Assembly (NCBI GenBank): GCA_018713115.1
Contig: DVFS01000046.1
Coordinates: 1 to 53,727, forward strand
Direction of reading: 5' to 3'
Length of the DNA stretch: 53,727 nucleotides
DNA from: Candidatus Galligastranaerophilus faecipullorum
GTDB lineage: Bacteria > Cyanobacteriota > Vampirovibrionia > Gastranaerophilales > Gastranaerophilaceae
Part shown: positions 38,827 through 46,318 of the stretch, in pieces
Layout of the letters: the number at the start of each line of letters is the position of its first letter
Position numbering within the stretch: the first letter of the stretch is position 1
Translations under genes and position numbers: made by a program
The notes under the pieces: model-generated
Database searches by the model: none
Told to the model about the DNA's origin: nothing
The model's input: only the letters and a program-made list of their open reading frames with translations

Positions 38827-39576
38827 TTGATTACCAAAAAATCACGTGAAGAATTGAAGTTAATGCGCCATGCGGGTTCTATCGTGGCTCTTGTTCATCA
38901 GGAAATGAAAAAGGCAGTGTGCGAGGGTATTTCGACTCTGGAGCTTGATATAATAGCGCAGAAAATTATAAAAGAAAACAGGGCTATACCGACATTTTTA
39001 GGTTATCACGGTTTTCCCGCTTCTATTTGCGCCTCGGTTAACGAACAGGTGGTGCATGGTATACCTTCAAAAGATGTGATTTTAAAGGCCGGAGATATTA
39101 TCTCAATTGATGTCGGCGCAACTTTTCACGGGCTTGTGGGTGACGGCGCCTGGACATATCCCGTGGGTGAAATAAGCGAAGATAAAAAAATGCTTCTTGA
39201 AACTACGGAAAAAGCCCTTATGGCAGGTGTTTCAAGAATGATGAACGGAAATCTGCTTGAAGAAGTATCTGCTGCGGTTGAAGATGTTGCACTCGCAAAG
39301 GGTCTCGGTATTGTTCGCCAGTACGGCGGGCATGGCGTGGGCCGCAACATGCATGAAGATCCGTTTGTTTTCAACTACAGGACGGGCAATAAAACAATAC
39401 TTAAAACAGGCATGACAATTGCAATTGAGCCCATGTTGAACCTCGGCAGGGATGATGTCTATGTACTTGATGACGACTGGACGGTTGTGACAGCGGACTC
39501 CAAAGCGTCTGCGCACTTTGAACATACTGTGCTTGTAGGTGAAGACGGACCCGAGATTTTAACGAGATTAAGTTAA
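38827..39576 (+). CDS. map: Methionine aminopeptidase
   Basis: A 249-residue type I enzyme from a TTG start (AGGAAA upstream). Metal ligands are two Asp in DVGATFHGLVGDGAWTYPVG, His in GGHGVGRNMHEDP, Glu in GMTIAIEPML and Glu in SAHFEHTVLV. The substrate His is in GYHGFPASICASVNEQVVHG in two adjoining pieces. It removes the initiator Met after deformylation. infA-rpmJ, the usual next genes, are absent; a minus-strand gene overlaps its end by 9 nt. Confidence 0.97.
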   Translation: MITKKSREELKLMRHAGSIVALVHQEMKKAVCEGISTLELDIIAQKIIKENRAIPTFLGYHGFPASICASVNEQVVHGIPSKDVILKAGDIISIDVGATFHGLVGDGAWTYPVGEISEDKKMLLETTEKALMAGVSRMMNGNLLEEVSAAVEDVALAKGLGIVRQYGGHGVGRNMHEDPFVFNYRTGNKTILKTGMTIAIEPMLNLGRDDVYVLDDDWTVVTADSKASAHFEHTVLVGEDGPEILTRLS

Positions 39577-40155
39577 ATATTTGGGCGGCAGCTTTTTTAC
39601 TATTTTTAAAATTTTATTGAGATATTTTTCCGTATTTTCAAAAGCCGCCTCGCAGCTTTTTGTATCTTCAAGAGAAATGTATTTTATGGAAAGATTTTCC
39701 GTGTCGAATATTTTTGAAGCGCAGTATAGATATACTATGCTCTGCAGGTCTTGGGCAGGGTTTTCGGGGATGTTTTTTGATTTCCAATCGTAGATTATAT
39801 ATTTTTCCCCGTCTTTAAAAATTGCATCAAAGCGGCCTGTCAGATAAAAAACGGGACTGCAGGCACCGCATTTTACAAGGAAGGTTTCTTCGGTTTTTAT
39901 AAATTTTTCTCTCTCTTTAAATATTTCAAGCGAAAAGGCTTTTTCAACAAGCTCTCTTTCTTTGCCGGACAGTGAATTTTTTATTTTATCAACATCAAAT
40001 CCGCGAAGATAGTATGAAATAAGCCCGTGTAACTTCTCGCCGGTTTTTGCACTGTTTGTTTTATTTATAAAATCAAGGCGTGCTATATATTTGTCAATGA
40101 AATCTTTTTCGCTTTTTTCAAGAATTTTTAGCGAGTTTGCACTGAATGTGTTCAT
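39568..40155 (-). CDS. RecB-family PD-(D/E)XK nuclease, stand-alone
   Basis: A 195-residue protein with the complete RecB/Cas4-type nuclease motif order: the conserved His in TGEKLHGLISYYL, GRFDAIF (Gly-x-x-Asp), YIIYDWKSKN (Asp-x-Lys) and QDLQSIVYLYCASKIF (motif QxxxY). In AddAB and RecBCD this domain is fused to a helicase C-terminus; here it is separate. The start at 40155 lies just after the helicase stop codon, with GGAGG 12 nt upstream. Longer starts overlap the helicase. It is last in the pnp-to-nuclease block. Confidence 0.88.
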   Translation of the reverse strand: MNTFSANSLKILEKSEKDFIDKYIARLDFINKTNSAKTGEKLHGLISYYLRGFDVDKIKNSLSGKERELVEKAFSLEIFKEREKFIKTEETFLVKCGACSPVFYLTGRFDAIFKDGEKYIIYDWKSKNIPENPAQDLQSIVYLYCASKIFDTENLSIKYISLEDTKSCEAAFENTEKYLNKILKIVKKLPPKYLT

Positions 40156-40159
40156 AAGC

Positions 40160-43100
40160 TTACGCATCCTCCGATGTGTCAAAAACGGCGCATGGTTTTT
40201 GTTCTTTTTCTTTTTTAAATATTCTGGCGGTTTTTGAGCAAGTCATATATAGTTTTATTTTGGCTCTTGTAATTCCCACATAAAGCAGCCTGTAGTTTTC
40301 TTCCAGAATTTCTTTTTTAAGCTGCTGTGCGGATTTTGGCGAAGTTTTAACGGACTGTATAAACTCCGAGTTTTTCTTTAATTTAATATCTTCAAACCTG
40401 AGTCCCAGATTATCGGATGACATCTCGGGAATAAAGACAAAATCAAACTCATCCCCTTTAGCTTTATGAAGTGTCATGATTCTGATTTCGCCGTTATTTG
40501 ACTCTTCCTTAGGCGTAAAAAATCTCACGCTTTTATTTATCCGCCCCGATATTTCATTCATTCTTAAAACCGTATCTTCAAACGTTTTTGCATTTTTATA
40601 TATATTATCCGCGATAGTGTATACCATAGAAACATTTGCAAACTCGAGTGTGTTTTTAAAATAAAAGTCGCCTATTTCAAGTACAAGCTCCATGGGGCTT
40701 GATGCGCGCTTAAGCAGAAAGTATTTTAAATCCCACCACAGGCGGTATTTTGAGCCGTCTTGAGACAGAAAATCATTTGATTGGATAAAATCCAAAATGC
40801 CTGACTCATCTGCATAGATTGGCATTTCAAGCAGTGTTTTGATACTGTTTTGGATATTTTTTTTATTTTTGAAATCGCATATAAAATTAAAAATTGCAAG
40901 GGTTGTTCTAAATACGGGGTTTTCATTAAGTGTTCCGGCAGAGCTTTTTGTTTTTATGGCGCAGCTTTCCATATATTGCGCCCACAGTCCTATTGCCCTG
41001 TTGCTTCTTAAAAGTATGCCTATTGATTTTTCGGGGTATTGTTTTTTGATTTTTTTAATTTCCTCAACCACAAAGGCTTTTTCAAGAGATTCTGTTTCAA
41101 AGAGTTTTAAACAGAGCGCGTCGTTATTGTCAGGGTTTTTGCCCTCAACCGGCTCCATTTTGATTTTTAAAAACGCGTCAGGTGCGGTTTTTAGACCGTT
41201 TTCAATTGTTTTGTTTGCAAAATCAATGATTTTTACCCCGCAGCGCTGGGATTTGTTCATTTCCACATTGCTGTTTTCGCTTATAAATTTTTTAAAGCCT
41301 TCAACATCGGAATTAGAAAATGTTGAAGTTATCGCCTGATTGACATCTCCGCATCTTATTATATTTCCCCATCTGCCCCCGAGGATTTTTATAAGCTCCT
41401 GTTGTACGGGGGAAGAGTCCTGCGCTTCATCTTCAATTATCACACGCGCAAGGTTTTGATAGTATGAGCGAACCTGAGAATTGTTTTTTAGTAATTTAAG
41501 TGCATAAACAAGAAGGTCGTCATAGTCAAGAAAATTATTTTCTTTCATTTCTTTTTGATAGCTTTCAAAAATTCTTTTAAAGCTCGGGCTTTTTATGTTT
41601 TTTATATCTGAATCTATGTCGCTTTTAAACTCGCTTAGAGCCCTTTCGTACAGTTCAACTTTATCGTGGTCAAGTCCTGTTTCAAGCACCGCCCTGCTCA
41701 GGATTTCGCGTCTTTTAATTTCATCTGTTATTTCAAAATCGTTATCAAGATTTACAAAAGTGTAGTTGTTGTTTTCTTTTAAAATCCTGAGTGCAAGCCC
41801 GTGAATAGTTGAAATTTGCGGCATTTCAAGCATATCGGGATATGCTTGTTTTATCCTTTCTTTAAAATTTCTTGCGGCTGATTCCATAAAAGTAAGTACA
41901 AAAATATTCTCGCTTTTAAGGTTTTTTATTATTTCCCCCTCAAGAAGCTTTAAGATAAGTGCAAGCATAATGGTTGTTTTCCCTGAGCCTGCCACGGCGC
42001 TTACCGCCATTTTTCCGCTTTTGTAGTCTAGAACGGCTTTTTGGTCGCTGCGGGGTATGATTTTTGCGGGCGGTTTGTGTGTTAAATGTGTTTCGTTTTT
42101 AAAAAATTTATCAACCGCACCGAAGTTTTCAAGACCCAGAGTGTCATATATGCTTGAATACACATAAACCTTCTCATCTGCACACAGATACAGCTTGTAG
42201 AGAATTCTTGCGGTTCTGTCGAGCGTGAGTTCAAGATTGTCCTCGGGTGTGAATGTTTTTTTATGCCAGTTTTTTTGAAAAACCCATGAGTTGTAAAGCA
42301 TTCCTATATCCTGTTTTATCCAGTCGGAGTTTGAGCAGTCAAGGAGGAATAAATGCTTTGTGCAAATTTCATTGTCTATAAGTTTTTGCGCAGTTGCAAT
42401 GATTATTGAATCCTCGGGTATTTCATCTTCGCTCAGGGGATTTTCCGAGATAATCGTGTTTTCGAGCTGTTCTATGAGTTTTATTTTTTCAAAATTGTTT
42501 GAGAATACTTCTTCAAAGTCGCCTATCTGCTTTGCAAGTTTATTGAGTTTTAAAATTGAACTCTGATTTTGTATGGTTTTTTCTATATATTTTGTGCAAA
42601 TTTCATAAAGCTGCACGCTTAAGGGTTTGTCTTTCAGGGTGTCCGTAAAGTCCAGAAATTCTTTTGTTTTCTCGCATTTAATTTCGTTTAAATATTCTTT
42701 GATATTTTTTTTGTATTCATAATTTGCGATTATGTATCCGTTTGTTATTTCAAGTGTTTCATCATTGCGAGGTTTTATAATTTCAAGGAGAATGTTTTTT
42801 AAGGCAAAGGGGCTTATGGGACAATCGGGCGAGTTAATCATTTTTAAAATTTCAACCGCTGCGGCAACTGTCGGATTCTGGTTCAGTTTTTCACTGCCCG
42901 AGAGAAAAAATACATTCTGTTTGATTTTTTTAAAACAATGACGCAGATACTCGTCTGTCACAGGTGTTACAAGCGCGATATCAGAGGGCTTGATTCCTGA
43001 TTTAATAAGTTTTTGAATTTTATTGACGGCGCCTGTTATCATCTCGTCGCGCCGTATAAAACTTTCGCTCTCCGTGCTGCCGGATGAAAAAGCTTTTTTA

Positions 43101-43933
43101 TTTTTAACCGTGTAAAATACTTCAAGGGCTGTTTTTTCATTGGGACAGCTTGCTCTTAAATCAACAGCTTTTTCTCCGAGGAATTCTTCAAAATTAATGT
43201 GCGCCGCGCTTAAATACCCGAGTCTTGAGGAACCGCAGGGGTCTTGGGCGATAATAAATTCTTTTATTTCTTTTTTTATGAATTTTAAATATTCAAATAC
43301 GGCAGGAGTTATCTCGTCCCCGTCATCTAAAATTACCGCACGGTATGGGTTTTTGGTATTTTTGTAAATATATTCAAAAAGGCTCACCTGTCTTAAGTAG
43401 TCAAATGCCCTTAACTCAAGTGTTTTGAGTTTGTATTGTTTAAGCGCCTGACGTACTTCATCTCTGTATGATTCGTTTAAAATTTCTTCCTTTTCCCTTA
43501 TTTCATTGTCTTCAAGCGCGTTTTGAACAATAAGGGAGTATCTTCTTAAAAGCTGGTGGAGAAGATTTATTTTGGAATTGTATCCCTTAAATTCCACGTT
43601 TTTTATACAGTTTTTAAAAATATACTGTGATACTTCAAGTCCGCACATGTTTGCAAAAACGGCAGGATGAGGAAAGTTTATGTTGTTTTCGATGAGCGGC
43701 CAGTTTTTTTCTATAAAACTTCTTGCAAGCCCGAAAAAACTGAATATATTCAGATTTCCGATATTCCCTTCGGGCGAGAGTTTTTTTATTTTTTCGGTGA
43801 AATTCTTCTTTTTCCTGCCGTTTTGAACAAGCACAAGGATTTCATCGGCACAGAACCCTCTGTCTTTAAGTTCAATGTATTTTTGAGCCAGAATGTCGGT
43901 TTTATTTGAATTTATTGTGGAAAAAATTATCAT
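40160..43933 (-). CDS. Tandem SF1 helicase: decayed N-terminal half fused to an active UvrD/AddA-type half
   Basis: A 1257-residue protein. The C-terminal half has all SF1A motifs: Q-like RSDQKAVLDY (628), I AVAGSGKTT (646), STIHGLALRIL (708), II VIIEDEAQDSSPVQ (831), III GDVNQAI (862), V IMTLHKAKGDEFDFVFIPE (1152), VI YRLLYVGITRAKIKLYM (1214). The N-terminal half repeats the same order in worn form: IIFSTINSNKTDIL at motif I without the lysine-rich P-loop, IFSFFGLARSFIE (63), LDDGDEITPAVFEYL at motif II (202), IIATAQKLIDNE with HLFLLD at motif V, and RILYKLYLCADEKVYVYSS at motif VI. RecC and AddB halves are decayed in this way. ATGA overlap with priA. Confidence 0.85.
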   Translation of the reverse strand: MIIFSTINSNKTDILAQKYIELKDRGFCADEILVLVQNGRKKKNFTEKIKKLSPEGNIGNLNIFSFFGLARSFIEKNWPLIENNINFPHPAVFANMCGLEVSQYIFKNCIKNVEFKGYNSKINLLHQLLRRYSLIVQNALEDNEIREKEEILNESYRDEVRQALKQYKLKTLELRAFDYLRQVSLFEYIYKNTKNPYRAVILDDGDEITPAVFEYLKFIKKEIKEFIIAQDPCGSSRLGYLSAAHINFEEFLGEKAVDLRASCPNEKTALEVFYTVKNKKAFSSGSTESESFIRRDEMITGAVNKIQKLIKSGIKPSDIALVTPVTDEYLRHCFKKIKQNVFFLSGSEKLNQNPTVAAAVEILKMINSPDCPISPFALKNILLEIIKPRNDETLEITNGYIIANYEYKKNIKEYLNEIKCEKTKEFLDFTDTLKDKPLSVQLYEICTKYIEKTIQNQSSILKLNKLAKQIGDFEEVFSNNFEKIKLIEQLENTIISENPLSEDEIPEDSIIIATAQKLIDNEICTKHLFLLDCSNSDWIKQDIGMLYNSWVFQKNWHKKTFTPEDNLELTLDRTARILYKLYLCADEKVYVYSSIYDTLGLENFGAVDKFFKNETHLTHKPPAKIIPRSDQKAVLDYKSGKMAVSAVAGSGKTTIMLALILKLLEGEIIKNLKSENIFVLTFMESAARNFKERIKQAYPDMLEMPQISTIHGLALRILKENNNYTFVNLDNDFEITDEIKRREILSRAVLETGLDHDKVELYERALSEFKSDIDSDIKNIKSPSFKRIFESYQKEMKENNFLDYDDLLVYALKLLKNNSQVRSYYQNLARVIIEDEAQDSSPVQQELIKILGGRWGNIIRCGDVNQAITSTFSNSDVEGFKKFISENSNVEMNKSQRCGVKIIDFANKTIENGLKTAPDAFLKIKMEPVEGKNPDNNDALCLKLFETESLEKAFVVEEIKKIKKQYPEKSIGILLRSNRAIGLWAQYMESCAIKTKSSAGTLNENPVFRTTLAIFNFICDFKNKKNIQNSIKTLLEMPIYADESGILDFIQSNDFLSQDGSKYRLWWDLKYFLLKRASSPMELVLEIGDFYFKNTLEFANVSMVYTIADNIYKNAKTFEDTVLRMNEISGRINKSVRFFTPKEESNNGEIRIMTLHKAKGDEFDFVFIPEMSSDNLGLRFEDIKLKKNSEFIQSVKTSPKSAQQLKKEILEENYRLLYVGITRAKIKLYMTCSKTARIFKKEKEQKPCAVFDTSEDA

Positions 43934-45948
43934 AAAATGTCGCTCGGGTCTACATCGGTTATCATTTTTATGTCGTTTGGCAGAATTATTTTTCTTAAAA
44001 ATCCCAGAACCGTATCGTGCCCTTTTTGTTCAAGTTTGTTTTTAATAAGTATATTATAGCGCCACTCTCCTCTTATCTTGCCTATAACGCAGGGGGTCGG
44101 GCCGAGAACTATTATTCTTTCATCAAGAGAGAGTTTTTTTATGTAGTTTTCAAGATGCGTTGTAATTTCAAGGCAGGCATGCTCGGCTTTAAATTCTTCT
44201 TTTGAGCTTATAATTATTCTTATTATCTTTGAATACGGCGGATAGTCGTACTCTTGTCTTAATTCTTTTTCTTTTTCAAAAAAGCTTATATAGTCCTGCT
44301 CTTTTGCTTTTTGCAAAAACAGGTTTTGAGGGTTGTATGTTTGAAAAATAACTTTTCCTTTGTGCCCTCCTCTGCCCGAGCGTCCCGCAACCTGGGTTAA
44401 AAGTGAAAAACCGCGCTCGGAGCTTCGATAATCAGGCAGATTAAAACTTAAATCCGCATTTATGACACCCACAAGCGTTACATTTGGGTTATCGAGACCT
44501 TTGGCTATCATTTGTGTGCCGATAAGGATGTTTATCCCGCCGTTTTGAAATTTTTGCAGAATTTCTATATGCTCGTTTTTTTTATTGAGGCTGTCGCTGT
44601 CAAGGCGCGCAACGCTCATCCCTTCAAATATTTTTTTTGCAATTTCTTCCACTCTTTGCGAGCCGGTGCCGAAGTTTTCAAGTTCTTCACTTCCGCAGTT
44701 TTCACATTTCGGGTGTTTGACTTCGTACCCGCAGTAGTGGCAGCGCCAGGAGTTTGTCTGTGAGTGATAAATCAGCGGTATTGCGCATTTTTTGCACTCC
44801 AGTACCTGTGCGCATTCCATACATTGTGTATAAGTTGAAAAACCGCGCCTGTTTATAAGGAAAATTACCTGTTCACCGCGCTCTATCGTTTCTTTTGTTC
44901 TGTTTATAAGGGTTCTTGAAAATATTCCCAGATTGCCGTCGATTCTTTCGCTTTTCATATCAACAATACTGACATCGGGCAGCTGTGCATTGTTGTATCT
45001 GTTTTTAAGCTCGAAAAGCGAATTTGTATTCTGTGCCTCCCAGAAGCTTTCAACATCGGGCGTTGCGCTTCCCGAGATTATTTTTGCACCGTGAAGCTTT
45101 GCAAGTTCTTTTGCCACATGTTTTGCACAGTATCTGGGATTTGGCATTGTTTGTTTGTAGCTTGTATCATGCTCTTCGTCAATTATTATGAGCCCGAGGT
45201 TTTTAATTGGTGCAAATACAGCCGAGCGTGCGCCGAAGAGTATTTTTATTTCATTCTGTCTTAGTTTTTGCCAGACGCTGTATTTTTCCGCTTCCGATAT
45301 CGATGAATGCCAGATTGCAACTTTATCGGCTCCGAAACGCTTTATGGTGCGCATGGTAAGCTGCGATACAAGTGCTATTTCGGGCGCCATAAAAAGAACG
45401 TTTTTACCCTCTTTTATAGTGTCTTCTATAAGCTTAAAATAAATTTCCGTTTTGCCCGAGCCTGTAATGCCGTACAACAGAGAGTTTGGCGCATTAACAT
45501 GCTTTATTTCCTCATAGACTTTTTGCTGTTCGGGGCTTAGTTTGTGCTCTTTGTTTTCTTCGTTTTTTTGAAGAGCGGCGTTTTCTTTTCTTGGTTTTCT
45601 GTAATTTTTAACGTTTTTTTCAAAAAATTTCTGTGGGAGTGCGGTTTTTAAAACCGTAGGAAGGTCGCAAAAATAATAGTTTGCAACCCATTCGAGCAGC
45701 TTTAGATATTCAAGCGTAAAAAGCGGCTCCGTATCAAGAATTTCATCTATGTATTTAGCCTTTATTCCCTCTTCAAGATAGTTTGAGAATCCCGCGATGT
45801 AGCCTTTTATTTTCCTTTTCGGGCCGAAAGGCACGCTCACGGGCTGGCCGATTTTTATATCGGAGCGCATACTGTCGGGTATTAAATAGCTGAAAGTTTT
45901 AGTCCCGAGTTTTGCAACATCTGTAAGAACAAGGGCGTATTTATACAT
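43930..45948 (-). CDS. priA: PriA, replication restart helicase
   Basis: A 672-residue SF2 helicase. The N-terminal DNA-binding domain (GQPVSVPFGPKRKIKGYIAG) is followed by Walker A YGITGSGKTEIYFKL, DEEH in LIIIDEEHDTSYKQ, and eight zinc cysteines between about residues 380 and 425 (CMECAQVLECKKC, CHYCGYEV, CENCGS). Later motifs are GTQMIAKGLDNPNVTLVGV and QVAGRSGRGGHKGKV. It reloads the replisome at stalled forks. It sits just upstream of the recombination-type helicase. Confidence 0.97.
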   Translation of the reverse strand: MYKYALVLTDVAKLGTKTFSYLIPDSMRSDIKIGQPVSVPFGPKRKIKGYIAGFSNYLEEGIKAKYIDEILDTEPLFTLEYLKLLEWVANYYFCDLPTVLKTALPQKFFEKNVKNYRKPRKENAALQKNEENKEHKLSPEQQKVYEEIKHVNAPNSLLYGITGSGKTEIYFKLIEDTIKEGKNVLFMAPEIALVSQLTMRTIKRFGADKVAIWHSSISEAEKYSVWQKLRQNEIKILFGARSAVFAPIKNLGLIIIDEEHDTSYKQTMPNPRYCAKHVAKELAKLHGAKIISGSATPDVESFWEAQNTNSLFELKNRYNNAQLPDVSIVDMKSERIDGNLGIFSRTLINRTKETIERGEQVIFLINRRGFSTYTQCMECAQVLECKKCAIPLIYHSQTNSWRCHYCGYEVKHPKCENCGSEELENFGTGSQRVEEIAKKIFEGMSVARLDSDSLNKKNEHIEILQKFQNGGINILIGTQMIAKGLDNPNVTLVGVINADLSFNLPDYRSSERGFSLLTQVAGRSGRGGHKGKVIFQTYNPQNLFLQKAKEQDYISFFEKEKELRQEYDYPPYSKIIRIIISSKEEFKAEHACLEITTHLENYIKKLSLDERIIVLGPTPCVIGKIRGEWRYNILIKNKLEQKGHDTVLGFLRKIILPNDIKMITDVDPSDIL

Positions 45949-45949
45949 T

Positions 45950-46318
45950 TTAGAGCAGTTTCTCCGGAATATTTTTCAGATTTAAGTCAATTGTGTCAAA
46001 AATTGTTTTCTGCACAAACGTTCCGCCCGTGAAGTCGCTGTTGGCGGGTAAGATTTTTATACTTGAAGTGTTTGCACCTTCTTTAGATATGGTTGCAATG
46101 TATTGTTTATTTGAATTGAGAAAAAGGATGTAGCCGCTTTTTGACTGCATTTCCGCCACTTCAAACTGCCCTGTTGAATTAAGTGCGCTGAGAGTCAGCA
46201 TATAAAGTTTGTCCGCACCCAGAGGATAATTTTTATAACAGCTTGAAAGCAGGGACTCATCCGCAAATGCGCTCTGTGATAAAAATATTGCACCAAGAAT
46301 TAAAATAAATTTTTTCAT
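45950..46318 (-). CDS. Small secreted protein, unknown function
   Basis: A 122-residue protein with a clear signal peptide (MKKFILILGAIFLSQSAFA, cleaved before DES). The mature domain is about 100 residues with short strands (GYILFLNSNKQYIATISKE) and one Cys in SSCYKNY. It overlaps the polA stop by 1 nt and ends 1 nt before priA, so it is translated inside a DNA replication operon although exported. No family recognised. Confidence 0.75.
   Translation of the reverse strand: MKKFILILGAIFLSQSAFADESLLSSCYKNYPLGADKLYMLTLSALNSTGQFEVAEMQSKSGYILFLNSNKQYIATISKEGANTSSIKILPANSDFTGGTFVQKTIFDTIDLNLKNIPEKLL

Follow-up and report, generated by a model that had tools for sequence, protein, structure and literature searches.

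The window analysed here is the whole 53,727-nucleotide (nt) stretch of contig DVFS01000046.1 (assembly GCA_018713115.1) from Candidatus Galligastranaerophilus faecipullorum, a member of the order Gastranaerophilales in the phylum Cyanobacteriota. It carries a gene for two fused helicase-like halves and, directly behind it, a gene for a RecB-family nuclease. The N-terminal half is a decayed helicase part of superfamily 1A (SF1A), termed the decoy below; the C-terminal half is an intact SF1A helicase, termed the motor; decoy, motor and separate nuclease together are called the trio. This three-part anatomy is seen in the following features:

42098..43933, minus strand: decoy half, residues 1-612; 25.2 bits against PF00580 on its own, kin to a stand-alone cyanobacterial decoy, SF1A fold
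40160..42097, minus strand: motor half, residues 613-1257 and stop; Pfam UvrD-helicase 1.2e-51, UvrD_C 6.2e-25; cyanobacterial helicase family
39568..40155, minus strand: RecB-family PD-(D/E)XK nuclease; PDDEXK_1 2.2e-9, catalytic residues invariant in 16 rows
43898..43921, minus strand: relic decoy P-loop STINSNKT, residues 5-12; both glycines changed, Lys and Thr kept
43313..43327, minus strand: decoy motif II DDGDE, residues 203-207; DDxDE invariant in 21 rows
41972..41989, minus strand: motor P-loop GSGKTT, residues 649-654; alignment of 21 rows
41417..41434, minus strand: motor motif II EDEAQD, residues 834-839; invariant in 21 rows
40259..40282, minus strand: motor motif VI YVGITRAK, residues 1218-1225; alignment of 21 rows
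39781..39837, minus strand: nuclease core GRFDA ... DWK; alignment of 16 rows
43930..45948, minus strand: priA, a lineage-specific neighbour with a 4-nt overlap with the fused gene

The fused protein of 1257 amino acids (aa) is encoded by a single frame (40160-43933, minus strand). The nuclease frame is open from a TTG at 40182 (39568-40182, minus strand), and its likely start is the ATG at 40155, because conservation begins there (MNTFS); from this codon the nuclease gene lies 4 nt past the stop of the fused gene. An earlier note, made from the letters of this DNA, had described a 1257-residue protein followed after 4 nt by a separate RecB-family nuclease, and the frames bear this out. The decoy continues directly into the motor with no nuclease in its chain, and the fused chain stops 32 residues beyond motor motif VI, leaving no nuclease on the motor chain.

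The full UvrD/AddA-type motif set attributed earlier to the C-terminal half was found in it: the P-loop, EDEAQD, GDxNQ, HKxKGDE and YVxxTRA show little or no variation across 21 aligned rows. The closest solved structure is PcrA (5.8e-63), and the nearest solved relatives are PcrA, Rep and UvrD. The NCBIfam models for pcrA, rep, addA and recB score far under their cut-offs against the fused protein. A quick, midpoint-rooted tree of 53 helicases was built with 10 AddA rows from the phylum, nine helicases from decoy-bearing photosynthetic genomes and three from genomes without the decoy. The label photosynthetic is inferred here from the cyanobacterial titles among the named matches. The 30 motor rows, from fused, cyanobacterial and clustered forms, share one side of a branch with a support of 100 in the Shimodaira-Hasegawa-like approximate likelihood ratio test (SH-aLRT), and UvrD, AddA and proteins of the type encoded on contig C63 of the window's genome lie on the opposite side; warnings were given of long branches in AddA and of an uneven letter make-up. 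The motor profile of the order matches the profile of the cyanobacterial helicase at E 1.5e-75. This trio-type helicase of 734-822 aa was found in 10 of 11 decoy-bearing photosynthetic genomes (the exception is G268), and the best motor-profile match in six genomes without the decoy is a UvrD-type protein.

The N-terminal half had been read in the earlier note as the same helicase order in degenerate form. Alone, it matches PF00580 with 25.2 bits (cut-off 23 bits; E 1.6e-5, profile positions 26-247), and profile-profile comparison aligns it with the C-terminal half (probability 92%, E 5.6e-7, 337 columns). A fold search with the window's decoy model returned Rep (2.9e-16) and AddB (6.4e-15). 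Together, the Pfam, profile-profile and fold matches place the repeated helicase order beyond chance. The window model is weak, with a mean predicted local distance difference test score (pLDDT) of 63.9 and long stretches within residues 242-502 below 50; the case for the fold therefore draws on the core of this model and on a better one, that of a cyanobacterial homologue (pLDDT 84.7). The latter superposes on AdnB over 596 residues at 4.4 Å, on AdnA over 546 at 4.7 Å and on AddB over 594 at 5.3 Å. Thus the SF1 fold that the note had proposed to look for in residues 1-620 is present in both models, and no convincing sequence match to the decoy profiles was found in the PDB.

At the ATP site of the decoy, the P-loop Lys, described earlier as lost, is retained: STINSNKT keeps Lys11 and Thr12, and it is the two glycines that have changed. 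The LDDGDEITP reading at motif II held, with D203, D204, D206 and E207 invariant across 21 rows. The Arg of motif VI has no equivalent in the decoy half by our reading of the alignment. A pattern search in the first 110 residues found the P-loop intact in 87 of 90 photosynthetic decoys (one protein is counted twice, L125 being L203). Within the order, it is intact in none of 21 decoys of the window's family and in 6 of 10 outside that family, one more having AxxxxGKT. Other lineages keep it in 3 of 13, the start being absent in at least L191 and unsure in L201 and L202. Among seven decoys that precede a motor, it is gone in six (L188-L190, L192, L193 and L196), the seventh being L191. The alignments indicate that the ATP site of the decoy decays while the remainder of the decoy stays conserved. 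This is consistent with a helicase fold that serves to read DNA, the role proposed for AddB and RecC (PMC4824097). By analogy, the window's decoy may read DNA.

In the nuclease, GxxxH, E98, GRxD, IxDxK and QxxxY are invariant in 16 rows from the order, in agreement with the motifs first noticed. Nine of these 16 nucleases carry a C-terminal CxxCxxxxxC together with an N-terminal Cys, the pattern of AddB-type iron-sulfur nucleases; the window nuclease and six relatives are without the C-terminal cysteine set. In a quick, midpoint-rooted tree of 47 rows including 8 AddB, 34 trio nucleases are split from AddB, C63-type and other nucleases with SH-aLRT 94. The nuclease profile of the order recovered a separate protein of 240-278 aa in 10 photosynthetic genomes. 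It missed G215 and G192, and the nuclease of G215 was recovered with the cyanobacterial nuclease profile; the two profiles match each other at E 6e-18. The cyanobacterial PD-(D/E)XK structure 9iac in the PDB was considered as a solved trio nuclease and rejected, since it matches the cyanobacterial nuclease profile with 19.5 bits and over its C-terminal 90 residues only.

Within the order, the N-terminal half was used as the query against 192 genomes, and the decoy half is present in 185. Twenty loci from the window's family and ten from other families were inspected, out of 184 other matching genomes. Each of the 30 has a single frame, 1233-1342 aa long, in which the motor matches at E<1e-50; both halves could be aligned in 21 of 21 window-family rows (the window included), and both were also detected in each of the ten loci from other families. 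The nuclease adjoins the fused gene in 18 of the 30 loci (15 of 20 in the window's family, 3 of 10 in the others), adjoining meaning that the first start codon of the nuclease frame lies at -92 to +12 nt from the stop of the fused gene. Three of the 12 order loci without an adjoining nuclease were followed up: in G006 the nuclease is on a different contig, and in G094 and G176 a PDDEXK_1 protein (208 and 210 aa) is on a different contig. The gene surroundings vary while the pair of fused gene and nuclease persists. No trio-branch nuclease was found in the fused-gene-free order genomes G069, G149, G151, G004, G019 and G024: four are without any nuclease match, G069 has a C63-type protein, and the 167-aa frame of G004 falls among other nucleases. 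G020, which also lacks the fused gene, was outside this nuclease search.

Elsewhere in the phylum, the N-half profile gave weak matches (best 5.7e-19) to separate frames of mostly 640-780 aa. In ten stand-alone decoys inspected, the match spans much or all of the profile, and hhalign joins the window-type decoy with a stand-alone cyanobacterial decoy at probability 99.9% (E 6e-31, 610 columns). Three stand-alone decoys compared with Pfam gave no family above its cut-off. Their neighbours are not shared, apart from one family found beside 6 of 10. The best 80 matches of the named scan bear apparently cyanobacterial titles, among them Microcystis, Nostoc, Fischerella, Crocosphaera, Prochloron and the Epithemia turgida endosymbiont.

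Fifteen stretches, drawn from 14 genomes of other lineages, were inspected. In six (L188-L193), decoy, motor and nuclease genes stand consecutively, in the order of the window's fused gene and nuclease; in L191 the decoy start and the nuclease end are missing at contig ends. L196 has the decoy, then the motor, then the contig end. The rest have the decoy alone (six) or the nuclease alone (two), some on short contigs.

The counts of co-occurrence cover 80 of the 160 genomes added by the phylum search, these 80 lying outside the order. The decoy is present in 66 and the nuclease in 64 (that of G225 being a 26-residue fragment), with 61 genomes having both, 5 the decoy only, 3 the nuclease only and 11 neither. 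G208 and G218 were tallied without the decoy, yet local inspection showed a decoy beside the motor in them. Of these genomes, 79 were searched for RecC (PF04257, with E. coli matching as the positive control), G271 having been replaced by the window's genome, and 7 gave a match. The nuclease was found in one of the 7 RecC-bearing genomes (G226, contamination 9%) as against 63 of the 72 RecC-free ones.

The earlier note had also asked for any further addA, addB, recB or recC in the window's genome. In this assembly, which is 92.84% complete, there was no match to RecC, and the AddB profile of the order matched just the C63 protein and the fused gene, weakly. The only PDDEXK_1 matches are the C63 protein and the window nuclease; the same two kinds are found in G091, a genome of the same genus that is 99% complete. 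The UvrD-type set consists of UvrD (C3), the UvrD-nuclease (C63), a Gabija-like helicase (C24), a UPF1-like protein (C53) and the fused gene. A plain AddAB or RecBCD in this genome was thus rejected, with no RecC, no AddB and no AddA beyond the C63 protein, the sole long helicase-nuclease. The latter (L007:2957-5995, minus strand) is a 1012-aa UvrD-type helicase with a PDDEXK_1 nuclease and ends in CxxCxxxxxC. It was considered as the missing partner and set aside, since it has its own branch in both the motor and the nuclease trees. Many order genomes encode a protein of this type (about 1000-1040 aa), including G069, G149 and G151, which are without the fused system.

The trio is probably a DNA-end-processing helicase-nuclease built unlike RecBCD, AddAB and AdnAB. 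The best reading is that of a variant of the RecBCD/AddAB/AdnAB kind that is a member of none of them. Going further, we lean slightly towards a phylum-old fourth class beside these three, with a single motor, a scanning decoy and a separate nuclease that are unlinked, clustered or fused according to lineage, and which would fill the missing place of RecBCD in most cyanobacteria. What stands firm is the anatomy: three parts with their families or folds, conserved catalytic residues in motor and nuclease, co-occurrence and gene order, in a genome that gave no RecC and no AddB. How the parts work, from complex formation and polarity to scanning, resection and any Chi response, is what we infer. 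The motor would load at a double-strand end and move 3' to 5', as expected from SF1A homology. Beside it, the decoy would thread and scan the single strand in the manner of AddB and RecC, and might pause at a Chi-like sequence. The nuclease would dock on the complex and trim the unwound strands, leaving a 3' tail for RecA.

It looks as if the nuclease was separate from the outset and the decoy-motor fusion is a derived step, because the motor lies outside the sampled AddA, the nuclease lies outside the sampled AddB, and the nuclease has its own frame in unfused relatives. For the same reasons, the detachment of the nuclease from AddAB or RecBCD, as first envisaged, could not be upheld. The simplest history, if early branching of the cluster lineages is assumed, would lead from an ancestral cluster through dispersal in photosynthetic cyanobacteria to decoy-motor fusion in the window's order.

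Several observations weigh against such a class and its joint action. In the photosynthetic genomes, decoy, motor and nuclease are unlinked in what was inspected, so that joint action there rests on co-occurrence; the Fisher values of the co-occurrence counts (1e-7 and 1e-4) ignore relatedness. Full-length AddB (E<1e-160) was found in at least 14 of the 80 outside-order genomes, all 14 with the nuclease, and in at least 10 of 80 order genomes; these are lower bounds, as the AddAB-like pairs of G192 and G196 matched weakly. This coexistence means that the trio need not be the sole or main resection enzyme. Five class relatives in family f8 (G239, G249, G255, G322 and G325) have neither decoy nor trio nuclease, and in the three of them tested no RecC and no photosynthetic-type AddB was found. 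A decoy-like protein stands without a nuclease match in G196, G198, G203, G212 and G216, three of which have RecC. Finally, cyanobacterial decoys gave no significant match to the photosynthetic AddB profile. According to PMC10269773, S. elongatus encodes AddAB, which fits the coexistence of AddAB and the trio; RecBCD, AddAB or AdnAB is encoded by 88% of genomes (PMC6452273). As for recC, it is reported from marine genera alone.

Compared with known systems, the trio is like AddAB in pairing an intact SF1A motor with an inactivated SF1 helicase and a RecB-family nuclease. It differs in having one separate nuclease, whereas AddA and AddB each carry a fused one in the sampled pairs; its decoy and motor are fused or separate genes, and its motor and nuclease fall outside the sampled AddA and AddB. 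RecBCD likewise sets a decayed helicase, RecC, next to an active SF1A motor and a RecB-family nuclease; the differences are that RecC has no match, the window nuclease is unfused to the motor, and the window locus has no second active motor gene, no search for RecD having been made. As in AdnAB, two SF1A helicases adjoin, one of them degenerate; the decoy may share the fold of AdnA, its model superposing on AdnA and AdnB over 546-596 residues (4.4-4.7 Å). Each of the two AdnAB subunits has a nuclease, whereas the window locus has one polypeptide and one separate nuclease. UvrD, PcrA and Rep resemble the motor, with PcrA as its best solved match, but the motor forms a separate clade with a decoy in front, and the genome has its own UvrD. 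Unlike in Gabija, no GajA adjoins the fused gene, the neighbours being priA and the nuclease.

Other explanations have to be weighed. The trio might be a module for fork restart or replication repair, in which the fused helicase would remodel stalled forks alongside PriA and PolA and the nuclease would cut back flaps, with a purely structural role for the decoy. The priA gene overlaps the fused gene by 4 nt, polA lies farther upstream in the same block, and among solved structures the motor stands closest to PcrA, Rep and UvrD. That priA and polA precede the pair is correct for the window but does not hold as a general feature: this neighbourhood is seen in 5 of 20 window-family loci, while the fused gene is in 20 of 20. 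Moreover, a separate UvrD/PcrA is present in the same genome, and the nuclease is of the RecB family and anticorrelated with RecC. This makes a fork-restart role improbable, although it survives better than the others.

A rearranged AddAB, with AddB and AddA fused, one nuclease lost and the other freed, would account for the match of the decoy to the AddB profile of the order (probability 88.5%, E 2.7e-6, 297 columns), for the fold match to AddB over 594 residues and for the AddB-like cysteines in 9 of 16 order nucleases. It is hard to reconcile with a motor outside 10 AddA rows at support 100, a nuclease outside 8 AddB rows at support 94, the lack of a significant match to photosynthetic AddB and the coexistence of AddAB and trio in the same genomes. 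We regard it as quite improbable. Of the RecBCD/AddAB-like rearrangement put forward at first, the fusion of a decayed and an active helicase with a separate nuclease stood, and the AddAB or RecBCD set with a detached nuclease did not.

Imported or linear DNA can be a substrate of helicase-nucleases, and the trio might process strands imported in natural transformation and not chromosomal breaks. No competence gene stands beside the fused gene in the annotated loci, and the fused gene is near-universal in an order of small genomes; there is little to recommend this option, which we rate level with the rearranged AddAB. A Gabija-type anti-phage helicase-nuclease is very unlikely, since the PADLOC GajB models hit by the motor (best 1.9e-43) respond to UvrD-type helicases at large and give the C63 protein a better score (2.1e-74), no GajA adjoins, the decoy half of the fused gene is in 185 of 192 genomes, and the 10 phage records listed of 69 matches cover the motor half only, none reaching 80% of the query. 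A defence system was rejected on the near-universal presence, the general GajB matches and the restriction to the motor half among the phage matches listed.

The proposed DNA-end-processing trio is not described in the titles and abstracts among the literature matches listed, either as a three-part system or as a decoy-motor fusion, subscription papers and preprints being mostly outside this coverage; the available parts of PMC11063404 and PMC1193525 contain nothing on a three-part system. Three genes that co-occur, clustered or partly fused, are a candidate for the preparation of break ends for RecA in cyanobacteria without RecBCD. The natural decoy-motor fusion fixes a 1:1 geometry and could ease structural work on DNA reading by inactive helicases.

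Further observations concern the surrounding genes and related proteins. Between polA and priA the window encodes a 122-aa protein with a signal-like start (45950-46318, minus strand), and its position is the same wherever the priA/polA neighbourhood was seen (5 of 20 loci). On contig C24 (L009:19-4891, plus strand) a Gabija-like pair was found, GajA at 1.6e-87 and a short 368-aa GajB at 3.7e-48, directly behind a type IIG-like methyltransferase. In family f8 no resection helicase-nuclease was recognised by these searches. In family f11 (L199-L202; G203, G198, G216 and G212), decoy-like proteins of 607-715 aa have no motor or nuclease in the stretch, and three of the four genomes carry RecC. 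AddA adjoins AddB in L283-L286 and L290-L292. The AddB-AddA-like pairs of L283, L284 and L290-L292 (order) and of L285 and L286 (photosynthetic) occur beside the trio in a minority of genomes; the AddA-like frame of L290-L292 has just 819-849 aa and is possibly without a nuclease. The photosynthetic stretches L298-L302 encode proteins of 849-930 aa with an RNase D-type-like start and a PDDEXK_1 match, beside a frame of 609-709 aa that is P-loop ATPase-like in four of the five.

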